Origin: Candidatus Saganbacteria bacterium
GTDB taxonomy: Bacteria > Margulisbacteria > WOR-1 > XYC2-FULL-46-14 > WPAF01
DNA length: 58,102 nt
Assembly: GCA_009772965.1 (NCBI GenBank)
Contig: WPAF01000004.1
Span: 1 to 58,102, forward strand
Direction: 5' to 3'
Shown piece by piece: positions 1 through 50,377 of the stretch. The position numbers and the translations under genes are program-made. The notes under the pieces are model-generated. The model did not search any database. It was not told the DNA's origin and was given only the letters and a program-made list of their open reading frames with translations. Each line of letters begins with the position of its first letter. Positions within the stretch are counted from its first letter, which is position 1.

Positions 1-30
1 GCCCATTTTACAGGCGTTTGCGGAGGATCG

Positions 31-1698
31 CTATGTTGAGGAGAACACCCAATCGTGGGAACAGCTTGAATTACAGGGGATATCACTGGGACAGTAGTGG
101 GCAATCATAAATATAGGCATTTTTTTAGCAAGCAAGTCTTTAGTCTTTAAGTGGAATCCGGAAATGCCTTTTCTTGCCCTGGATTGGCCATGCTTTTTCC
201 TGGAAAGATCACCCGGAGCAATATCCTTTTCTCTCGCAAAACTATTTATAATACTTAAAAAGGAGGCGCCGTATTGTTCCAGTTTTTTTGCTCCCACACC
301 GGTAATATTCGAAAAATCTTCACTGTTAAGCGGCAGATAATGGGACATTTCCCTAAGCGCGGTATCCGCAAAAACAACAAATGGAGGGACATTTGCTTCA
401 TACGCTAATTTCCTTCTCAATGCTCTCAACCTCTCAAACAATTCCCTATTATAACCAAGCTCATCTTTTGCCTGAATGGCTTCAAAAGAAGCGCCCGAAC
501 CAGCCAGGTTTTTGGTAGGGCAGCAAATATCGCAGCCGCGGCAAGTTGTCCCTGTTAATTCTTCTCCAAAATAATTGAGCAGATATTTTTTTCGGCAAGT
601 TGCAAGTTTGGCATAATTTGATACCAGATTCAATTTTTTGTGAGCCCGCGATCGTAACTTTTCATCTTCAATTTGATTTATAAAAAATTCATGCTTCCTG
701 GTATCCGCGTATGTATAAAACATAACGCATTCGCTTGCGAGCCCGTCCCTGCCGGCACGGCCAATTTCCTGGTAATATCCCTCCAAAGTTTTGGGATAAG
801 TGTAATGCACCACAAGCCTAACATCCGGCTTGTCTATCCCCATGCCAAAAGCAATGGTGGCAACAATAATATTCACCTCATCTTTAATAAAAAGATCCTG
901 CACCAAGGTTCTTTCGCCAGGATCCATGCCGGCATGATAAGCACGCACATTGAATTTTTTTAATTTTAAATTTTCAGCAACCATCTCGGTCTCTTTGCGT
1001 GAAAAACAATAGATAATCACCGATTCGTCCCTGTATTTCTGCAAAATATTCACAAGCTTTGGGGAAGCTTGTTTTTTTTCTATGACCCTTATGTGTAAAT
1101 TCTCGCGGTTAAAACTTGAAATAAAAACCCGTGCTTTTTGCAGTTGCAGCTGATTAATGATATCCTCGCGCACTTGCCTGGTCGCGGTAGCGGTTAAGGC
1201 CATCAAGGGAGTTGAAGGGAAAAGTTCCTTTAATAAGCTTAAATTGCGGTAACTTGGGCGAAAATCATGCCCCCATTCAGAAATACAGTGCGCTTCATCC
1301 ACCACAACCAGGCTGACGGTTAAGGTTTTTAAGAATTCTTGGAAATCCTTTAATGCAAATCGCTCCGGCGCTATATATAAGATTTTAACTTCGCCATTTT
1401 TAGCAGACAAGCAAATCTTATCAATTTGCATGGGCGCCAAAGTAGAATTTATAAGCTCTGCCTTAATTCCGCATGCCCGAAGAGCATCAACCTGATCTTT
1501 CATTAAGGAAATCAAAGGGGAAACAACAACCGTAATACCGTCGAATTTTAGCGCCGGCAATTGATAGCAAAGCGATTTGCCTCCCCCTGTCGGCATCAAG
1601 ACAAAACAATCTTTTCCCGAAACAACATGATTAACAATCTCCTCTTGCAAAGGCCGGAATTCGTCATAACCGAAATACTGCTTTAATAAATGTTTCAT
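31..1698 (-). CDS. recQ: ATP-dependent DNA helicase RecQ (HRDC domain; non-homologous-looking C-terminal tail)
   Basis: FGYDEFRPLQEEIV, MPTGGGKSLCYQLPAL, VVDEAHCISEWGHDFRPSY, IGRAGRDG, zinc-binding Cys cluster and HRDC-like segment. Confidence 0.93.
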   Translation of the reverse strand: MKHLLKQYFGYDEFRPLQEEIVNHVVSGKDCFVLMPTGGGKSLCYQLPALKFDGITVVVSPLISLMKDQVDALRACGIKAELINSTLAPMQIDKICLSAKNGEVKILYIAPERFALKDFQEFLKTLTVSLVVVDEAHCISEWGHDFRPSYRNLSLLKELFPSTPLMALTATATRQVREDIINQLQLQKARVFISSFNRENLHIRVIEKKQASPKLVNILQKYRDESVIIYCFSRKETEMVAENLKLKKFNVRAYHAGMDPGERTLVQDLFIKDEVNIIVATIAFGMGIDKPDVRLVVHYTYPKTLEGYYQEIGRAGRDGLASECVMFYTYADTRKHEFFINQIEDEKLRSRAHKKLNLVSNYAKLATCRKKYLLNYFGEELTGTTCRGCDICCPTKNLAGSGASFEAIQAKDELGYNRELFERLRALRRKLAYEANVPPFVVFADTALREMSHYLPLNSEDFSNITGVGAKKLEQYGASFLSIINSFAREKDIAPGDLSRKKHGQSRARKGISGFHLKTKDLLAKKMPIFMIAHYCPSDIPCNSSCSHDWVFSST

Positions 1699-4590
1699 TT
1701 ATAGTGTCCCCAATAATTCACTGGCAATCTCATAGCTTTCTAAGCGCATTATGCTTTCATCCGCATTGCCAAAACTCAAGAAATTTACGCTGCCATACCA
1801 TACAATGTTTTGGTCAATAAGTGTGAATTTTTGATGTATATTTGATTTATGTATAACTTTGATTCCGGCATTTTTTAAGTATTCCGCCAGGCTTTCAAAG
1901 GCTTGCCGATTGTCAGGCCTGAAATCTTCAGGACTCCTTGTCACTACGGTAATATCCACGTTATTTATTATTTTCGGCGATAATAACTGTATCATTTGTA
2001 TTAGCCTATTTTTTCTCATGAAAGGGCAAACAATAATAATTTCTTTGCCGGACATAGCGATGTCATTGGAGAATACGCCCATGAAACTCTTGCCGTCAAA
2101 GATTATGTTGGTTTTTCCCAATTGCGCGGTTTCTGTTTTTGATTTGTATCCTATCTGGGCATACCCTTTAACCCTCTTGTGATACATGCGCTCTAAGACG
2201 GGAACATGGATGTCCACATAGTCATAAATAAGCACTTCTTTTTTGTTTTCATAAATACGATGTAAACGCCCGGCGTATTGGGCAATTGTGCCTTTCCATG
2301 CAATTGGCATAACCAAAAATAGGGTGTCCAAGCGGGGATAATCAAAACCCTCTCCAACATATTTTCCTGTAGCCACAATAATTAACGGGTCTTCTTTGGC
2401 AATAGAACCCAATCTCTGCATTATTTCTCGCTTTTCTTTTTGAGAGGCGCTGCCGACAAGAGTAATTACATTTGGGCATTTCTTTTCCAGCATATTTACC
2501 AAGGTGGATACATGGCTTGCCCTTTCGGTCAAAATAAGTGGCGTCCTGCTGGCTTCCAGGCATTTTTGGATATCATCAACTATCTGGCGATTGCGCAATT
2601 CGTCATCAGATATTGATTTGTAAATCTGGGTAATATGCCAATTCTTCTCGTCTTGCGATAGCGGCTTTTTGAAACTGGTAAATTTGGGGATTATAAAATG
2701 ATCGAACGGCCGTTTTTCAGCCTGGGCTTTGGCGTCTACGGTGTAACAGATTGGTCCGCATTGCATAAAAATAATTGGATGATGACCATCTTGCCTTGTT
2801 GGAGTCGCGGTAAGCCCGTAAACATATTTGGCATTAATGGTTTTTAATATCTTCTCAAAATTAAAAGCCGGCACATGATGGCATTCATCAATGATTACCA
2901 TGCCATAATTTTTGACCAGGTCTTTTACTTCTTGCCCTTTAATGAGTGATTGCATGATGGCAACATCTACAATGCCCGTTAATGTATTTTTCCCCGCACC
3001 CAGTTGCCCAATGATAGGACGCTGTTTTTTGCGGCCTTGCTTCCCGATAAGCTTAGGCAATGGCTCATTAATAGATAGGAATTGGAGCAGTGTTTTTTGC
3101 CATTGAGCCAATAGTGCTTGCGTGTGCACAAGTATAAGCGTATTTACTTTCCGGTTGGCAATCAAGTTTGCGCCAATAATCGTTTTTCCGAAAGCAGTTG
3201 TCGCGGCCAATACCCCGAAAGCATGTTTCAATAGTGCCGCAACAACAGGTTTTTGATCAGCATTGAGATTGCCGTTAAATTTAACTTTTATCTTTTTCCC
3301 TTGATTAGTTTTATCGTCAATGGCATATGCGACATCCGCATTATCAAGTAATCGTAGCAGCCCTTCTTCGCAGCCGCGAGGAATGCCCAAATACTTTTCA
3401 GTTTCATCAATAGTGGAAATAATTCTTGGCTTATCATAAATCGGCAAGCGCATAGCCTGTGCCTTATAAAATTCTGGGTTCTTGAACGCGGCCAGCCGTT
3501 TGATCCTGGTTAATGCTTTTTGTGTAATGGCCGCTTTTTCTAAATAGAGCATATTTGCTTTTACAATGGCAACTATTTTCGGAAAATCAGTTTTTGCCAA
3601 GTTTTGCTCCGGCTTTGTTTTTTCCCATGGCTTTGCATCTTCTTCGTCTTTTATTAAAACTCCAAGTTCATTGCCATTATTCAGCGTTTCAATTTTTTCC
3701 CGGACTTCAGCAAGCGGCATTTTCTTAATTCCGGACAAATAAGCCCATTGATCCATATAGGGGACAAATTGTTCATCAATAAAAGCACTATTGCCAAACT
3801 TGCGGGCATATCCTTGGAGAGGCAAGGCAATTAAATTGCCGAAACCGCCTTTTGGCATTATGTCCTGGCTTGGAAATAAGCGATCATACGACTTAAAGCT
3901 TATTTCATGGCGGTTATTCATGGCACAAGTTAATAAGGCGCTTCCCAATTTGCGCGCAGTCGCCGCAGGAATGGCCTCTTCAAAAAAGATCCAAACGTGG
4001 GCGCCATTGCCTGAACGGGACCGCTCGACCGTTATTGGAATATTATTCGTAGCACAAATCAGCCTGAAAGCGGTAATATCTTGAGGCCATTCAGCTCCAT
4101 CAAAATCAATAGCCAATAAATAGCAGTTTTCATCCATTAACAATGGATATATTCCAATAATATCTTTTCCTTGGCCATTTGTACCTTTCAAATGAGCTTC
4201 AATCACAAAATCATTAATACAGGAAAACTTACGATTTGGACAAGACGCACAACGATACTTCTTTTTATTGCACAGGGCGGCATGCCATTCGTTTTCACAA
4301 ACCGGCTGATAGCCGCCTCTTTTTGTTGCTTCGCTATACCAACGCTTTGCGTATACATCATCTCTCCCTCGAAAGATAGACCTAAAAAGAGCTATTTTCT
4401 CTTCGGGCAAACTGTTGTTGTGGACTTTTGGCAATATTGTAGGTGTTTCATCCGGAATATTCATAGCGGGAGAAACTGTAATCGGCTGTTGTGGATTTAG
4501 TTGTTTCCGGAGGCTTTCATTTTCCGCTTTTAATAAAAGATTTTCCGTCTTTAGCGCATTATAGGCTTTTAGCAATTCTTCATAATTCAT
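1699..4590 (-). CDS. AEP-type primase domain (TOTE conflict-system-like) + SF2 helicase + C-terminal PLD-type domain
   Basis: N-terminal coiled coil, Cys cluster CNKKKYRCASCPNRKFSC, primase-like LLAIDFDGAEW / VERSRSGNGAHVWIFFE, helicase TTAFGKTIIGANLI / IIDECHH / GLTATPTRQDG, C-terminal HQKFTLIDQNIVWYGSVNF; TAA stop directly followed by recQ ATG. Confidence 0.85.
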   Translation of the reverse strand: MNYEELLKAYNALKTENLLLKAENESLRKQLNPQQPITVSPAMNIPDETPTILPKVHNNSLPEEKIALFRSIFRGRDDVYAKRWYSEATKRGGYQPVCENEWHAALCNKKKYRCASCPNRKFSCINDFVIEAHLKGTNGQGKDIIGIYPLLMDENCYLLAIDFDGAEWPQDITAFRLICATNNIPITVERSRSGNGAHVWIFFEEAIPAATARKLGSALLTCAMNNRHEISFKSYDRLFPSQDIMPKGGFGNLIALPLQGYARKFGNSAFIDEQFVPYMDQWAYLSGIKKMPLAEVREKIETLNNGNELGVLIKDEEDAKPWEKTKPEQNLAKTDFPKIVAIVKANMLYLEKAAITQKALTRIKRLAAFKNPEFYKAQAMRLPIYDKPRIISTIDETEKYLGIPRGCEEGLLRLLDNADVAYAIDDKTNQGKKIKVKFNGNLNADQKPVVAALLKHAFGVLAATTAFGKTIIGANLIANRKVNTLILVHTQALLAQWQKTLLQFLSINEPLPKLIGKQGRKKQRPIIGQLGAGKNTLTGIVDVAIMQSLIKGQEVKDLVKNYGMVIIDECHHVPAFNFEKILKTINAKYVYGLTATPTRQDGHHPIIFMQCGPICYTVDAKAQAEKRPFDHFIIPKFTSFKKPLSQDEKNWHITQIYKSISDDELRNRQIVDDIQKCLEASRTPLILTERASHVSTLVNMLEKKCPNVITLVGSASQKEKREIMQRLGSIAKEDPLIIVATGKYVGEGFDYPRLDTLFLVMPIAWKGTIAQYAGRLHRIYENKKEVLIYDYVDIHVPVLERMYHKRVKGYAQIGYKSKTETAQLGKTNIIFDGKSFMGVFSNDIAMSGKEIIIVCPFMRKNRLIQMIQLLSPKIINNVDITVVTRSPEDFRPDNRQAFESLAEYLKNAGIKVIHKSNIHQKFTLIDQNIVWYGSVNFLSFGNADESIMRLESYEIASELLGTL

Positions 4591-4688
4591 ATCTCAAGAT
4601 ATCCCTCAATGGTTTCCCTTATTAGGTCTTATTATATCACAGTGTATATTTCACTTGTTTTGCGTATATTAGCATGCTATTATAACCC

Positions 4689-4714
4689 TACTATTATTAC
4701 ATGTAATTATAGTA
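4689..4714. promoter_or_regulatory. 26-bp near-perfect palindrome (one mismatched pair) abutting the ATPase start codon
   Basis: TACTATTATTACATGTAATTATAGTA immediately before ATG at 4715. Confidence 0.7.
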
Positions 4715-6019
4715 ATGATTATGGGATCAATTAAAAAGAAAAAAGAATTGGAGGCGGCTGGAGCTATCCTCCCCAAAAGGGCGGTCGAGCGCGCCTTAAA
4801 AACCGAGATCCTTCCCTGGCTAAAAAGAGATGAGATAATAATCATTACCGGCGCTCGCCAGACAGGGAAAAGCGTGCTTCTTTCCCAGCTTATACACTAC
4901 CATCTGCTCCCCTGGACAAAAAACGTCCATTATTTCAACCTTGATATTCCTGGTCATTTTGAGTTCATAAATAATCAGGATAACCTTATCGCTTTGGCGA
5001 CAAAAGCCGGGGCCCGATCATTTGTCATTATCGATGAAATACAACGCCTGAAAGAACCAGGGCTTTTTCTTAAAGGCATCTATGATCTCCACCTGCCGCT
5101 TAAATTGATCGTTTCCGGCTCCAGCTCCCTGGAAATAAAGAGCAAAGTCCATGAGGCTCTTACCGGTCGTAAAGTTATCTTTCACCTTGTCCCATTTAAT
5201 ATCAAGGAGCTTGCCGGTGCTCTTTTTCCGAAAAATTCTTTTAATGAGATTATAAAAAATAAGGCTGTTCTTAATGTCGTTCTTGACCATTATTTCACTT
5301 TTGGAAGTTATCCGGCAGTTGCTATGGCCAAAGGCCATAAATTAAAACATGCCTTATTAAAGGAAATATTTCATAGTTATATGGAAAAAGATATTAAATC
5401 ATTTCTTAAAATAGAAAATGAAACTGCTTTTCGAAACCTAATCAAGCTACTCGCGTCCCAAATCGGTAATTTAATCAACAAAGATGAACTTTCAAATAGT
5501 TTAGGAATACATAAAAACACTCTCGACCATTATTTGTGGTATTTGGAAGAGACTTTTATTCTTGATTTCGCGCGGCCATATTATAAAAACCCAAGAAAAG
5601 AACTACTTAAAAGCCCAAAGGTTTATTTCCTCGATCTTGGCATCAGGAATTTCGCTGTTAGCAGTTTTGGAGAATTTGAATTTCGCCCTGACAAAGGGGC
5701 TATTTTTGAGAATTTCGCTTATCTCGGTCTGAAGGAAAAGATCGATCCGCTTACTCCGATCAATTTCTGGCGGACAAAAGCTGGCGCTGAAGTTGATTTT
5801 GTTATATCATCGAAGCTAAAACCGGTTCCCTTTGAAGCAAAGGCCGTTTCTTTAAAAAACTATAAAGTGGGGAAATCCTTTAGGAGCTTTCTTCGAAGTT
5901 ATCAGCCTGATAAGGCGTATTTTCTGAATCTTTCCCTGAACGGAAAGCGTAAAATTGACGGTTCCGAAGTTGCCTTTCTGACCCCTTCGGAATTTATTAA
6001 AATTAAACAAATCGATTAA
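4715..6019 (+). CDS. AAA+ ATPase with DUF4143 (AAA_14 family)
   Basis: ITGARQTGKSVLLSQL Walker A, FVIIDEIQRL Walker B, C-terminal GAIFENFAYLGLKE / INFWRTKAGAEVDFVI typical of DUF4143. Confidence 0.9.
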   Translation: MIMGSIKKKKELEAAGAILPKRAVERALKTEILPWLKRDEIIIITGARQTGKSVLLSQLIHYHLLPWTKNVHYFNLDIPGHFEFINNQDNLIALATKAGARSFVIIDEIQRLKEPGLFLKGIYDLHLPLKLIVSGSSSLEIKSKVHEALTGRKVIFHLVPFNIKELAGALFPKNSFNEIIKNKAVLNVVLDHYFTFGSYPAVAMAKGHKLKHALLKEIFHSYMEKDIKSFLKIENETAFRNLIKLLASQIGNLINKDELSNSLGIHKNTLDHYLWYLEETFILDFARPYYKNPRKELLKSPKVYFLDLGIRNFAVSSFGEFEFRPDKGAIFENFAYLGLKEKIDPLTPINFWRTKAGAEVDFVISSKLKPVPFEAKAVSLKNYKVGKSFRSFLRSYQPDKAYFLNLSLNGKRKIDGSEVAFLTPSEFIKIKQID

Positions 6020-6361: not shown

Positions 6362-6413
6362 AATATGTCCTAAGATATAAGACAGTTGTCTTGTTAAAAA
6401 GGACAGTGTTTTG

Positions 6414-7049
6414 ATGCTCTTGCCAACCAGAAGAAAAAAAATACTAGAAGTCTTTATGGCGGATCCTTTTCATGAAGTGCATCTTCGTGAAGTGGCTCGC
6501 ATGGCGCAGGTTTCGCGGGGCAATGTTGACCTTTCCCTGCGGCAGTTTGTCCAGGAGGGGATGTTTAAAAGACGCAATGTTTCGAATATGACCTTTTTCC
6601 ACCCCGACTTATCCAATGAACGACTGCTTAAATTATTCGAATACCTGGAAGTTGAAAAAAAAGAATTATTCTTTAAAAATAGTAGAAAAATAGCCCGGTT
6701 GCTACGGCAATACGCGGAAGCCCTGCTTAATTTGTCCGAGATGAAGATTCAAATGATCATCCTTTTTGGCTCGGTTGCGAGAGGCGATTGGACGAAAGGT
6801 AGCGACATTGATATTCTCACGGTTTCCGCCGAAAAGAGCGAAGAACTGTCGGGCGTTTTTAGCAAAGCGAGAAAGGATGTCAGTCCGCTGCTTGATATCA
6901 GGCCAATTGGCACGACTATAGATAAATTTATAGCCGGTTTAAAAAACAAATCCGAATTTTACGAAGAGCTCTGGAGAGATAGGATCGTTTTATACAATGA
7001 ATTTCTTTTCTGGCGGCTAATTGGAAAGGGGAGAGAGTTTAGTGCCTAA
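6414..7049 (+). CDS. wHTH-MNT nucleotidyltransferase domain protein
   Basis: N-terminal wHTH; IILFGSVARGDWTKGSDIDILTV nucleotidyltransferase motif. Confidence 0.85.
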   Translation: MLLPTRRKKILEVFMADPFHEVHLREVARMAQVSRGNVDLSLRQFVQEGMFKRRNVSNMTFFHPDLSNERLLKLFEYLEVEKKELFFKNSRKIARLLRQYAEALLNLSEMKIQMIILFGSVARGDWTKGSDIDILTVSAEKSEELSGVFSKARKDVSPLLDIRPIGTTIDKFIAGLKNKSEFYEELWRDRIVLYNEFLFWRLIGKGREFSA

Positions 7050-7299
7050 AGACATGGAAAAAACTTTGCGGGAATGTTTCCACCCTAGGCAGGGGAAGCC
7101 GAATCTTAGAAGATGCTCTCCCGATCCAGGCCGAGCTAAGCAACTTGAGCGTAAATATGCCGATACACTGGAAAAAGCGCAGGAAACCAGGGTCATTGAA
7201 CAGTATGGCGTTGAAATCATCACCAATGAAGATGTCGAGTGGATCATCGAAGACGCTAAAGACTTCGTCCTAAAAATTGAAGAAGTGTTGGCGGAGTAG
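7042..7299 (+). CDS. Small protein overlapping the MNT gene; possible reduced HEPN-like partner
   Basis: GTG start overlapping 8 nt with upstream gene; C-terminus EDVEWIIEDAKDFVLKIEEVL resembles HEPN C-terminal helix. Confidence 0.5.
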   Translation: MPKDMEKTLRECFHPRQGKPNLRRCSPDPGRAKQLERKYADTLEKAQETRVIEQYGVEIITNEDVEWIIEDAKDFVLKIEEVLAE

Positions 7300-10614: not shown

Positions 10615-11580
10615 ATGTATCCGCCTTTTCAAATTAATACCGAAAGCTTGAATCTTTGCGCGGAAATTAACCGCCTCCTGGGTCAGTTTGAGGGCTTAAA
10701 GATTCCTGTGCCACAGCCTCAATTAAGGCGGCAAAGCCGGATAAAAACTATATTTTCATCTTTGGCGATCGAAGGGAACAGATTGACCGAACAACAAGTA
10801 ACAGACCTTATAAACAATAAAAAAGTCGTCGGGCCGCAAAAAGATATTCTCGAAGTAAAAAATGCTATTAAGGCCTATGATTTAATCCATACTTATAAAA
10901 TTGACCGGCTCGATTCCCTGCTTAAAGCGCATCAGGCCATGATGCGCGGCCTGGCCGAAGATGTTGGTTCCCTGCGCGTCAGGAATGTCGGTATTTTTAA
11001 GGGGGAGGAGGTTGCGCATCTGGCGCCAAAGTATCAGCTGGTTCCGAAATTAATGGGCGGTCTTTTTAATTTTTTAAAAAGAAAAGATAATTTAAATCCA
11101 TTGATAAAATCGAGCGTTTTTCATTACGAACTTGAATTTATCCACCCTTTTTCGGATGGCAATGGACGAATGGGGCGCCTCTGGCAAACCGTTATTTTAA
11201 TTAAATACCATCCGCTTTTTGAATATATCCCGATGGAATCAATAATCAGGGAGAAGCAAAAGGAATATTATAAAGTTCTGGCGCAAGCGGACAAGGCGGG
11301 AGATTCTACCCGGTTTATTGAATTTATGCTGAAAATTATTTTTCGGGCGGCGCAGGATTTTTTGGTTAACGTTAAACCGCAAACCGAGACCGCAAAAACC
11401 AGGCTAAAACTGGCAGGGGATCATTTTCAAAATAATCCTTTTTCCAGAAAAGATTACCTAATTTTCCATAAAAACATTTCAACCGCGACTGCCAGCCGCG
11501 ACCTGCTCTTTGGGGTAAAGCAAAAAAATCTTAAAAGAAGCGGGGCAAGAGCTTTAACCTTGTATAGGTTTATAACTTAA
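10615..11580 (+). CDS. Fic family protein with C-terminal wHTH-like segment
   Basis: Fic motif HPFSDGNGRMGRLWQ; inhibitory-type SSLAIEGNRL near N-terminus. Confidence 0.92.
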   Translation: MYPPFQINTESLNLCAEINRLLGQFEGLKIPVPQPQLRRQSRIKTIFSSLAIEGNRLTEQQVTDLINNKKVVGPQKDILEVKNAIKAYDLIHTYKIDRLDSLLKAHQAMMRGLAEDVGSLRVRNVGIFKGEEVAHLAPKYQLVPKLMGGLFNFLKRKDNLNPLIKSSVFHYELEFIHPFSDGNGRMGRLWQTVILIKYHPLFEYIPMESIIREKQKEYYKVLAQADKAGDSTRFIEFMLKIIFRAAQDFLVNVKPQTETAKTRLKLAGDHFQNNPFSRKDYLIFHKNISTATASRDLLFGVKQKNLKRSGARALTLYRFIT

Positions 11581-47281: not shown

Positions 47282-50200
47282 TTATAGATTTATCTCAACA
47301 TACCCTGTAAAGTCTGATGTCCTGTAGTCGGGTTGTTTGCTTATTTCCTGTTCGTGGCGCAAAGAAATGTGCACATATTCCGACAAATCATATTTTGCCC
47401 GCAAGCTGATGTTTGTTTTTTCAGTTGAAAGCGACTGGTAAAATTTTGAATAAGTATAATCCCCATCTATCCTAAGCCCTTCATAAAAGCGGAAAATAAA
47501 TCCAGCCCCAGGTGTAATAGAATATGATTCCTGGATTGATAAGAAATCTTTGCTTTGCGAGAAAGAATAAGAAAGAGAAAACGCCCAAAAATCATTTAAA
47601 TTCAATGTGCCTTTCAATGATCCAGTCATTGTCTGCGAATTTGTTGAATTGTCCAGCATTTCGGCAGTCCCGGATTTTGTGAATTTATTTGAGTAGCTTG
47701 AGTCAACCGCAAACCTTTCAGAAAGGGAAGTCCTGATATTCGCGCTAAATTCGCGGTTTTGTCCGTTTGTCCGCTGGAAGGTTTCTGAGGTGGCGGGGGA
47801 TTGGAGATTATTAGCAATCGCGTCATCCATTAAATAATTTAATTCAAGCGAGATAAATCTCAAGGGAGCGGATTTTAATGTGTAGATGTATGATTTTGAA
47901 TTTTGGTCCGAGCTTATGCGCTTGTAGTTGGGATAATCCGTCTTATCTATTGATAGGTTGTTATTTGTTTTATACACTCCCCCCAGCATTAAAGAATTTG
48001 ACGGCAGAAGGTTTATTTCATACTGCTGTGTTTCATCGTTGTATGTTTTTCCTTGAGTCCTGTTTAATATCGTAAAATTCGGCTTGAAATAATATTTCAG
48101 GCGCAAAGCTTGAACCGGGCGCAGGTCAAGCCTAAAAGACCCGACTGTTTTTGTCACAACTTCATTGGTTGAGCCGAATAATTCATTGACAGAAGTTACG
48201 TTGTATTTGCCATCTGTTGAAATTTTCTCAGTCGGGTCTGCCTTGTAAGCAATATCTGTCACATTGGTTTTTCCGTCGATGCTGTCATCAATGTAGTCGA
48301 GCGCGATTGAAGCCATATATTCTTTTCTGGGAGAGGCGGATAAATTTAAGCTGTACGTTTTGGTAAACGGCTTGATCCCGCCCGGCAAATCAGAATCTTT
48401 TAATTCAAGGTTGGCGGCGAGGGAAAATTTTTCAATACCCGTTGTTGAAAGCCCGAAGCCGGCGATTTTATAAATGGTTGCTTCTTCGGTGGGATAGCGG
48501 TTTAATCTTTTTTCATGAGTGTATTTTGATGAAAAATTTAAACGGCCGATTGTATGGTTTAAATCATAATAATTCCTGGTTGTCAGGCGGTTAATCTGGG
48601 TATAGGGCGGCACCGGGTCGTTATTTTCTTCAAGCTCATCCAAGCTAAAGCCCAAAGAAGGCAATTTTTGTGGAGAAAGCATGATTTTCGCGTTTCTGGT
48701 TAAAGTATTGAAATCAACACCCGCCTGGGAAAACTTTTCATTATTATAATTTGCCGATGCGTTGACAACATCGTTTGGCCTAAATGTAAAAAGCCCTCCG
48801 TATTCCAATAAGTTTTGTTTTGGCAGGGCGTCCGAGATAAGCTCAAATTTGGCGCCTATTTTCTTGTATCGTGTCCCAAGATAAAAAGGGCCAAGCATTG
48901 AAGATGTTTCAATTTTTCCCGCTTTACCGATTGACTTAGGGTTTTGCGGATCAAGTATATTTAAATTCTTTTCTGAATATGCAAATTCTCCTTTTGCGGA
49001 AAGCAGGCTTCCCAGGTTTAATTCTCCGTCAGTCCCTAAAATATAATGGCTTTTAGGGGCTTCAGCAGAGCTGGTCGAGGTGTATATTGCATCTGCCCCG
49101 TTTTTAAGGTCTGAATCATCAATCCAGCTGGCGCCCAATTTTAAATTTGGATTTAGATTTCCATTTGCCCTTAGGGCATAGGTTGAATGCTTATAGGTTG
49201 TTTCCCGCCAATCAAAATATATCTCAATTATCTGGGTTTTGATTATAATTTTGTTTTTAAAAGTGACAGTCCCTGCAATATAGTCAATTTCATAATCTTC
49301 TCCGCGTTTTTGGAGAGCTCCGTCAACATAAACCCGTTCGCTGTTAACAACCGTTTTATACCCAAGAGTATAGGGTCCTTGCGTCCCGTTGCCGTACATT
49401 TTTACCGCTTTTGATTGGCCCTGCGGGGTAGAAGCAATTGCCTTAAACGAAAACTTTTCATAATCTCCTGAAAGTTTAACGCCCGACAATACTTTATTTA
49501 GGCGGGAAAATTCAGTATCTGCTAAATCAGCAGTAAAATCGCCAAAATAGGCTTCGGTTGAAGCTCTTTTTAATAATATGCTGATTTTTTCTTCGCGGGA
49601 GGCAACCTGGGTTGTTCCAATGGACGAAGTTGAAAAGAAGTTAGCATTAATATCAGTATCCGATACTTTACCCGAAATATTTAATCTCAATGATTCTTCG
49701 CGTGCGATGCCAGCGAGATATCCTTCTTTTGATCCCTCAATATTCCTGCTTTGAAATGAAAAGATTCTGGATCCTTTGATCGCAATTGGAGATGCCTCAA
49801 TCGATATTGCTTCAGCGGTTGGAGAAATTTCAATTGCCATTGATTCCTGGGTGGCATCCAGGCCTTTGGATATCCGATCAAACTCTTTTGGCGCGAATTG
49901 TTTAATTTCGAGCTTGGCTTTGCCGCCTTTTTTAAGCGGGGTAAAAGCCCTTATCCAAAATCTTTTGCCGATTACTTCATATTTATATTTTGGCTCGGAT
50001 TTTTGCCTGAAGAAATTAAAGATATTATCAAAAATTGTCATAAATCCGATATTTTTTTTATGCTTGATATATATGGTCAGCGGCTGCCAGCCGTCTTTGT
50101 ATTTATCAAAGATATTAACCTTGCCTGACCATGTGTCGCCGCTTTTTACCAGGTTGACTTTTAATGTATCTTTAAACTGCACGATTATCCCAACAGCATT

Positions 50201-50377
50201 CAAAGGGGTTTTTATGTATATGTTTGTTTCTTTGCCGATTACAAGAGGATAGGTTGGAGAGAATTTTATTGAAAATTCCGGAGTGTCATAGGTTTCTTTA
50301 AAAGGCAAATCGCGTAAAGTTGCTCCCGCTCCTCCGTAAAACAATATTAGGAAAATTACAACCAGGCGGCAAATCAT
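47282..50377 (-). CDS. Large exported envelope protein, predicted outer-membrane beta-barrel-rich
   Basis: Signal peptide; alternating amphipathic strands throughout; overlaps upstream NHL gene by 4 nt. Confidence 0.75.
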   Translation of the reverse strand: MICRLVVIFLILFYGGAGATLRDLPFKETYDTPEFSIKFSPTYPLVIGKETNIYIKTPLNAVGIIVQFKDTLKVNLVKSGDTWSGKVNIFDKYKDGWQPLTIYIKHKKNIGFMTIFDNIFNFFRQKSEPKYKYEVIGKRFWIRAFTPLKKGGKAKLEIKQFAPKEFDRISKGLDATQESMAIEISPTAEAISIEASPIAIKGSRIFSFQSRNIEGSKEGYLAGIAREESLRLNISGKVSDTDINANFFSTSSIGTTQVASREEKISILLKRASTEAYFGDFTADLADTEFSRLNKVLSGVKLSGDYEKFSFKAIASTPQGQSKAVKMYGNGTQGPYTLGYKTVVNSERVYVDGALQKRGEDYEIDYIAGTVTFKNKIIIKTQIIEIYFDWRETTYKHSTYALRANGNLNPNLKLGASWIDDSDLKNGADAIYTSTSSAEAPKSHYILGTDGELNLGSLLSAKGEFAYSEKNLNILDPQNPKSIGKAGKIETSSMLGPFYLGTRYKKIGAKFELISDALPKQNLLEYGGLFTFRPNDVVNASANYNNEKFSQAGVDFNTLTRNAKIMLSPQKLPSLGFSLDELEENNDPVPPYTQINRLTTRNYYDLNHTIGRLNFSSKYTHEKRLNRYPTEEATIYKIAGFGLSTTGIEKFSLAANLELKDSDLPGGIKPFTKTYSLNLSASPRKEYMASIALDYIDDSIDGKTNVTDIAYKADPTEKISTDGKYNVTSVNELFGSTNEVVTKTVGSFRLDLRPVQALRLKYYFKPNFTILNRTQGKTYNDETQQYEINLLPSNSLMLGGVYKTNNNLSIDKTDYPNYKRISSDQNSKSYIYTLKSAPLRFISLELNYLMDDAIANNLQSPATSETFQRTNGQNREFSANIRTSLSERFAVDSSYSNKFTKSGTAEMLDNSTNSQTMTGSLKGTLNLNDFWAFSLSYSFSQSKDFLSIQESYSITPGAGFIFRFYEGLRIDGDYTYSKFYQSLSTEKTNISLRAKYDLSEYVHISLRHEQEISKQPDYRTSDFTGYVEINL

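Follow-up and report, generated by a model that had tools for sequence, protein, structure and literature searches.

The stretch of DNA analysed here, referred to as the window, comprises 58,102 nucleotides of contig WPAF01000004.1 from Candidatus Saganbacteria (positions 1 to 58,102, forward strand). Close to its first base lies a gene for a 963-aa protein that joins a Prim-Pol domain to a helicase and a PLD domain, followed without a gap by recQ. This raises the question of whether the two genes form a dedicated two-helicase system which acts on the replication intermediates of invading DNA, as proposed in the first-pass annotation, or whether the fusion protein has to be understood without RecQ.

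Architecture and catalytic residues of the fusion protein

The 963-aa frame described initially stands, with an ATG start on the minus strand; its end had been set at position 4690, which is too far by 100 bases, and the coding sequence spans 1699-4590. The features of this part of the window are:

1..99, plus strand: contig edge, occupied by the 3' end of an IS4-family transposase repeat (identical to contig C17:1-99; homologous to the open reading frame L180:1222-1587)
31..1698, minus strand: recQ frame, 555 aa, with helicase, zinc-binding and HRDC domains, abutting the TAA of the upstream Prim-Pol gene
1699..4590, minus strand: fusion of coiled coil, zinc knuckle, AEP Prim-Pol, XPB-like SF2 helicase and PLD domain, a homologue of the CAPP_A helicase type (frame, Pfam, motifs in 32 homologues, AlphaFold2 model, relatives XPB, RadD, MpCAPP and NucT)
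1714..2064, minus strand: C-terminal single-HKD PLD domain, residues 843-959
2254..3267, minus strand: SF2 helicase, residues 442-779 (Pfam, profile search, conserved motifs)
3700..4401, minus strand: AEP/Prim-Pol domain, residues 64-297
4492..4584, minus strand: N-terminal coiled-coil helix, residues 3-33
4715..6019, plus strand: divergent AAA_14-DUF4143 ATPase, PADLOC candidate PDC-S01 (Pfam, PADLOC), a recurrent but not constant type of neighbour

All three enzymatic domains expected for this protein were found by Pfam with their catalytic motifs intact: AEP-TOTE (PF22548) at residues 64-297 (E 1.1e-95), ResIII/DEAD at 442-599 together with Helicase_C at 679-779, and PLDc_2 (PF13091) at 843-959 (E 2.1e-9). 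The coiled coil and the zinc cluster claimed beforehand also hold, as the N-terminal pattern of L/E heptads is conserved in an alignment of 32 relatives and is modelled as a single helix (residues 3-30), and the four cysteines of the zinc knuckle (Cys98, Cys107, Cys114 and Cys117) are nearly invariant, each being kept in 30-31 of the 32 homologues. The AlphaFold2 model of the whole protein is confident (mean pLDDT 87, pTM 0.78). Conservation is complete, with 32 of 32 aligned homologues, for the AEP acids D162 and D164 (DxD) and D236 (the third acid), for the SGxGxH motif at residues 193-198 and for the helicase motifs GKT (468-470), DECHH (568-572) and QxxGRxxR (771-778). With catalytic residues invariant across the homologues, the frame is not a product of chance.

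Relatives of known structure exist for each enzymatic part. For the primase these are two structures of the Marinitoga CAPP protein MpCAPP (7nqd, E 1.6e-27; 7nqf, E 4.5e-27), for the motor XPB (with Bax1), RadD and UvsW, and for the C-terminal domain NucT (6ehi, profile search). The protein also matches NF040561 with E 7.8e-23, yet stays under the full-length cut-off of that model.

The PLD domain is the most variable part with regard to catalysis. The window protein carries the HKD motif HQKFTLID (919-926) and GSVN (933-936), which match HxK(x4)D plus GSxN. Of the 28 relatives scored as possessing the domain, 13 carry the HKD histidine with K or R at +2, and D926 is present in all 27 aligned rows with a letter at that column. 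Roughly half of the family thus has a degenerate HxK, which is lost or moved while the aspartate and a GSxN-like motif persist, a pattern that suggests repeated loss of catalysis with retention of the fold. Cleavage by the PLD domain is possible in the subclade of the window protein; since about half of the family no longer has the HKD histidine, nuclease action cannot, going by the alignment, be its general function.

Distribution, mobility and possible roles

Members of this widespread family retain every catalytic residue of primase and helicase, and they are located on plasmids and transposon-like elements, where the neighbours of conflict type keep changing. The occurrence of the gene within the phylum is scattered (6 of the 57 genomes searched), and 24 of the 391 genomes of a Clostridia sample contain it. 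In addition, 98 plasmids carry the family at E<=1e-60. Chromosomal copies lie next to genes for SLFN_AlbA_2, DUF4143, ATPase_2/DUF234, SNF2 and YhcG proteins, and some plasmid copies adjoin AbiEii, PDDEXK nuclease or toxin-antitoxin genes. Split or stop-bearing copies occur in five Clostridia genomes (G179, G202, G234, G277 and G358), so the gene decays often. Given the plasmid carriage, the changing neighbours and the frequent broken copies, the profile is that of a mobile, dispensable and self-sufficient accessory gene. A phage origin was considered and rejected, since phage matches cover only the helicase part, at <30% identity; scans of viral contigs returned helicase-only relatives for the Prim-Pol protein and none for RecQ. 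A foreign base composition was likewise dismissed, as the GC content of recQ and of the Prim-Pol gene is near the window average.

Several other genes of the window deserve mention. The DUF4143 type of gene which diverges from the fusion gene also neighbours the Prim-Pol gene in locus L013 and probably in L058. Further along the same stretch, a nucleotidyltransferase-domain gene (6411-7299) may form an MNT-type pair with the 92-aa frame that comes after it, a Fic-domain gene occupies 10615-11580, and a 1031-aa frame at 47282-50377 has no Pfam match at E<=0.001.

Taking these data together, we read the protein as a probably solitary, partner-promiscuous and mobile PrimPol-helicase of conflict type. 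In its full form, this reading, to which we give a probability of roughly 0.55, describes a free-standing, horizontally mobile, non-CRISPR Prim-Pol/SF2 protein of the CAPP_A helicase type with a C-terminal PLD domain, for which RecQ is incidental. From the earlier idea of a conflict system, the mobile conflict-type gene is retained, while the two-helicase TOTE/RecQ system is given up. In the most likely mechanism, the coiled coil would multimerise the protein, and the XPB/RadD/UvsW-like motor would load on DNA that is branched or partly single-stranded and open it. The Prim-Pol domain could then prime or fill in where a strand has been exposed. In the subclade of the window protein the HKD module, for which dimerisation is required, may nick or bind DNA. 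Replication intermediates of competing mobile DNA would be disturbed or processed as a result. Against a role in conflict, the association with conflict genes in the neighbourhood is loose and might stem from nothing more than their common location on accessory islands. Apart from studies of the Prim-Pol in CRISPR-linked relatives, no function of the family was found in the literature consulted, nor any phage, plasmid or biochemical test of it.

The main rival is that the protein serves the replication or recombination of its own element, priming and unwinding element DNA during transposition or transfer, and is not antiviral. We consider this possible, though we favour conflict between mobile elements. 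It gains from the PLD-less AEP-helicase genes of plasmids, which directly flank recombination machinery: on alphaproteobacterial plasmids (L219, L221, L222 and L226) they stand tail-to-tail with a cassette of three consecutive tyrosine recombinase genes, and at three other plasmid loci (L224, L225 and L227) they lie beside TniA/TniB/TniQ. In line with this, 43 of the 98 plasmid carriers are conjugative, and one Clostridia copy (L239) comes after several integrase-like frames. However, these recombination systems are of unrelated types and are absent in the window and around most chromosomal relatives, which indicates that the PrimPol-helicase is not tied to the replication cycle of one element.

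A host enzyme for DNA repair or replication restart, combining a RadD/XPB-like motor with a gap-filling Prim-Pol, is unlikely. The closest solved helicases, namely XPB-Bax1, UvsW and RadD, and the gap filling by Prim-Pols in other bacteria (PMC8211822) would fit such an enzyme, but the patchy occurrence even within the phylum, the carriage on plasmids and the broken copies are unlike a core repair function. The family itself offers natural contrasts, as members with and without the PLD domain, and with an intact or a lost HKD histidine, would allow the roles of the motor and of the Prim-Pol to be seen by themselves.

The recQ gene and its link to the fusion gene

The direct abutment of the two genes, reported at the outset, was confirmed: the TAA of the Prim-Pol gene is followed immediately by the ATG of recQ (TAAATG), and a GGGGA lies 8 nt upstream of this ATG. 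On account of both features a translational coupling of recQ to the Prim-Pol gene is plausible, and in this genome recQ probably shares a transcript with that gene and is coupled to it in translation.

The recQ gene itself deviates from the usual form in two respects, neither of which is mentioned in the first-pass annotation. Its product has the helicase, RecQ zinc-binding and HRDC domains in Pfam and scores 627 against TIGR01389 (cut-off 640), but no match to the RQC winged-helix domain was obtained at E<1, and the alignment shows a gap between the zinc-binding and HRDC domains. In addition, the 3' end is broken. The last ~27 aa of the frame are read-through into a repeat and not RecQ sequence, and the HTH-like tail of other RecQs stops in the alignment at the repeat boundary. 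Positions 1-99 of the window also make up, without a mismatch, the start of contig C17. They recur at several contig ends of a relative (G015), and their counterpart in an open reading frame (L180:1222-1587) which matches annotated IS4-family transposases is its 3' end. The edge of the contig thus falls within a repeated element located either in recQ or at its end. RQC is also missing, independently, in RecQs of two Clostridia genomes (G403 and G413); as these RecQs sit elsewhere in their genomes and belong to a different clade, RQC loss was rejected as a mark of TOTE-linked RecQs.

Whether RecQ might simply be the sole housekeeping copy had been left as the alternative to a partnership. It is indeed the only RecQ of the host genome and its position is not conserved, but it is not a housekeeping gene of the lineage: RecQ is missing from the genomes of its family and order, where the matches are otherwise to generic DEAD-box helicases (identity about 25%), and within the class nearly all genomes lack RecQ, with one member (G014) having a RecQ-like gene of 39% identity. 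Because of this absence the window RecQ is probably an acquired gene. In the trees it forms a long branch that lies away from the other RecQs of the phylum, save for one group that is open and poorly resolved.

A genuine two-helicase module, in which coupled translation yields equal amounts of both proteins and RecQ resolves or rewinds the structures made by the PrimPol-helicase, would find support in the TAAATG abutment with the GGGGA before recQ and in the presence of RecQ solely beside the Prim-Pol gene in a lineage that otherwise lacks it. A second case is genome G065 (L013/L241:7226-13468), where recQ, a DUF4143 ATPase gene and the PrimPol-helicase gene follow each other in one direction, with recQ upstream, and where the linked RecQ is again the only one of the genome. 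The comparison across carriers makes this module very improbable. Among the loci with flanks, G065 is the only other one with recQ within a few kb of the Prim-Pol gene, which amounts to 1 of ~65 other carrier genomes (the 42-genome set and 22 further Clostridia carriers combined, the latter with no RecQ gene near the Prim-Pol gene); many flanks are cut by contig ends and a few neighbours may be missed, yet a conserved RecQ partner would have been obvious despite the short flanks. Moreover, 16 of the 42 carrier genomes, which span many phyla, have no RecQ at all. The same holds for the genomes of the closest Prim-Pol relatives, which belong to the same phylum and are 83% and 73% identical. Next to these two copies (L005:3002-5380 and L125:10721-13117, respectively) lies a gene for an SNF2-family helicase and not recQ, in differing orientations. 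A RecQ sub-clade common to the window and G065 loci was rejected by two trees: the two linked RecQs are not sisters, and that of G065 falls into an ordinary Clostridia clade. Together with the broken 3' end of the window recQ, these results speak against the dedicated RecQ partner that had been proposed. RecQ is an incidental operon neighbour and not an obligate partner, and its tight linkage to the fusion gene is peculiar to this genome and does not reflect a conserved two-helicase system. Also very improbable is a newly assembled pair, in which the PrimPol-helicase-PLD protein would have recruited an RQC-less RecQ by coupling to act jointly on invading replication intermediates, with G065 as an independent recruitment.

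Comparison with known systems

The label TOTE calls for caution. The acronym denotes TPR, OB, TBP and Effector, as cited in PMC12458937, and the PF22548 model, which the window protein matches, is named after these systems; "AEP-TOTE" is a domain name only and no proof of a TOTE system. TBP (PF00352) is absent from the host genome and from the 42 carrier genomes in a search with positive archaeal controls, which a TBP of very divergent sequence might escape. Among the scanned neighbours, neither a TPR nor an OB domain was matched: the adjoining genes encode RecQ and the DUF4143 ATPase, and the downstream side ends at the contig edge. Membership in TOTE was rejected after the TBP searches, and the TOTE-like reading could not be upheld at the level of a system. 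With the RecQ and TOTE labels removed, experimenters are pointed to the protein alone.

Among defence systems in PADLOC, Mokosh MkoC, DISARM DrmC and Dpd DpdK show weak similarity that is confined to the C-terminal PLD region; their companion proteins are not seen beside the window gene, and those systems do not include the primase. When the neighbouring RecQ is compared with TIGR01389, it shares the helicase, zinc-binding and HRDC parts and differs by the lack of RQC and the broken 3' end.

An architecture of this kind is already described among the CAPP proteins. The third type of CAPP_A is a Prim-Pol followed by a helicase, and this is the commonest architecture among the non-CRISPR CAPP homologues, which are typically found on mobile or transposable elements (PMC8211822). 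The window protein shares the catalytic domain homologous to MpCAPP with the helicase C-terminal to it; in contrast to this type, it adds the N-terminal coiled coil and the C-terminal PLD domain. CRISPR-associated CAPP proper would lie in an operon with cas1/cas2. The host genome, which is 94% complete, contains no cas1, and direct repeats of 24 or more bases at close spacing are absent from the window, for which reasons a CRISPR association was rejected. The fusion is thus a well-preserved member of an already described kind of protein on mobile DNA.
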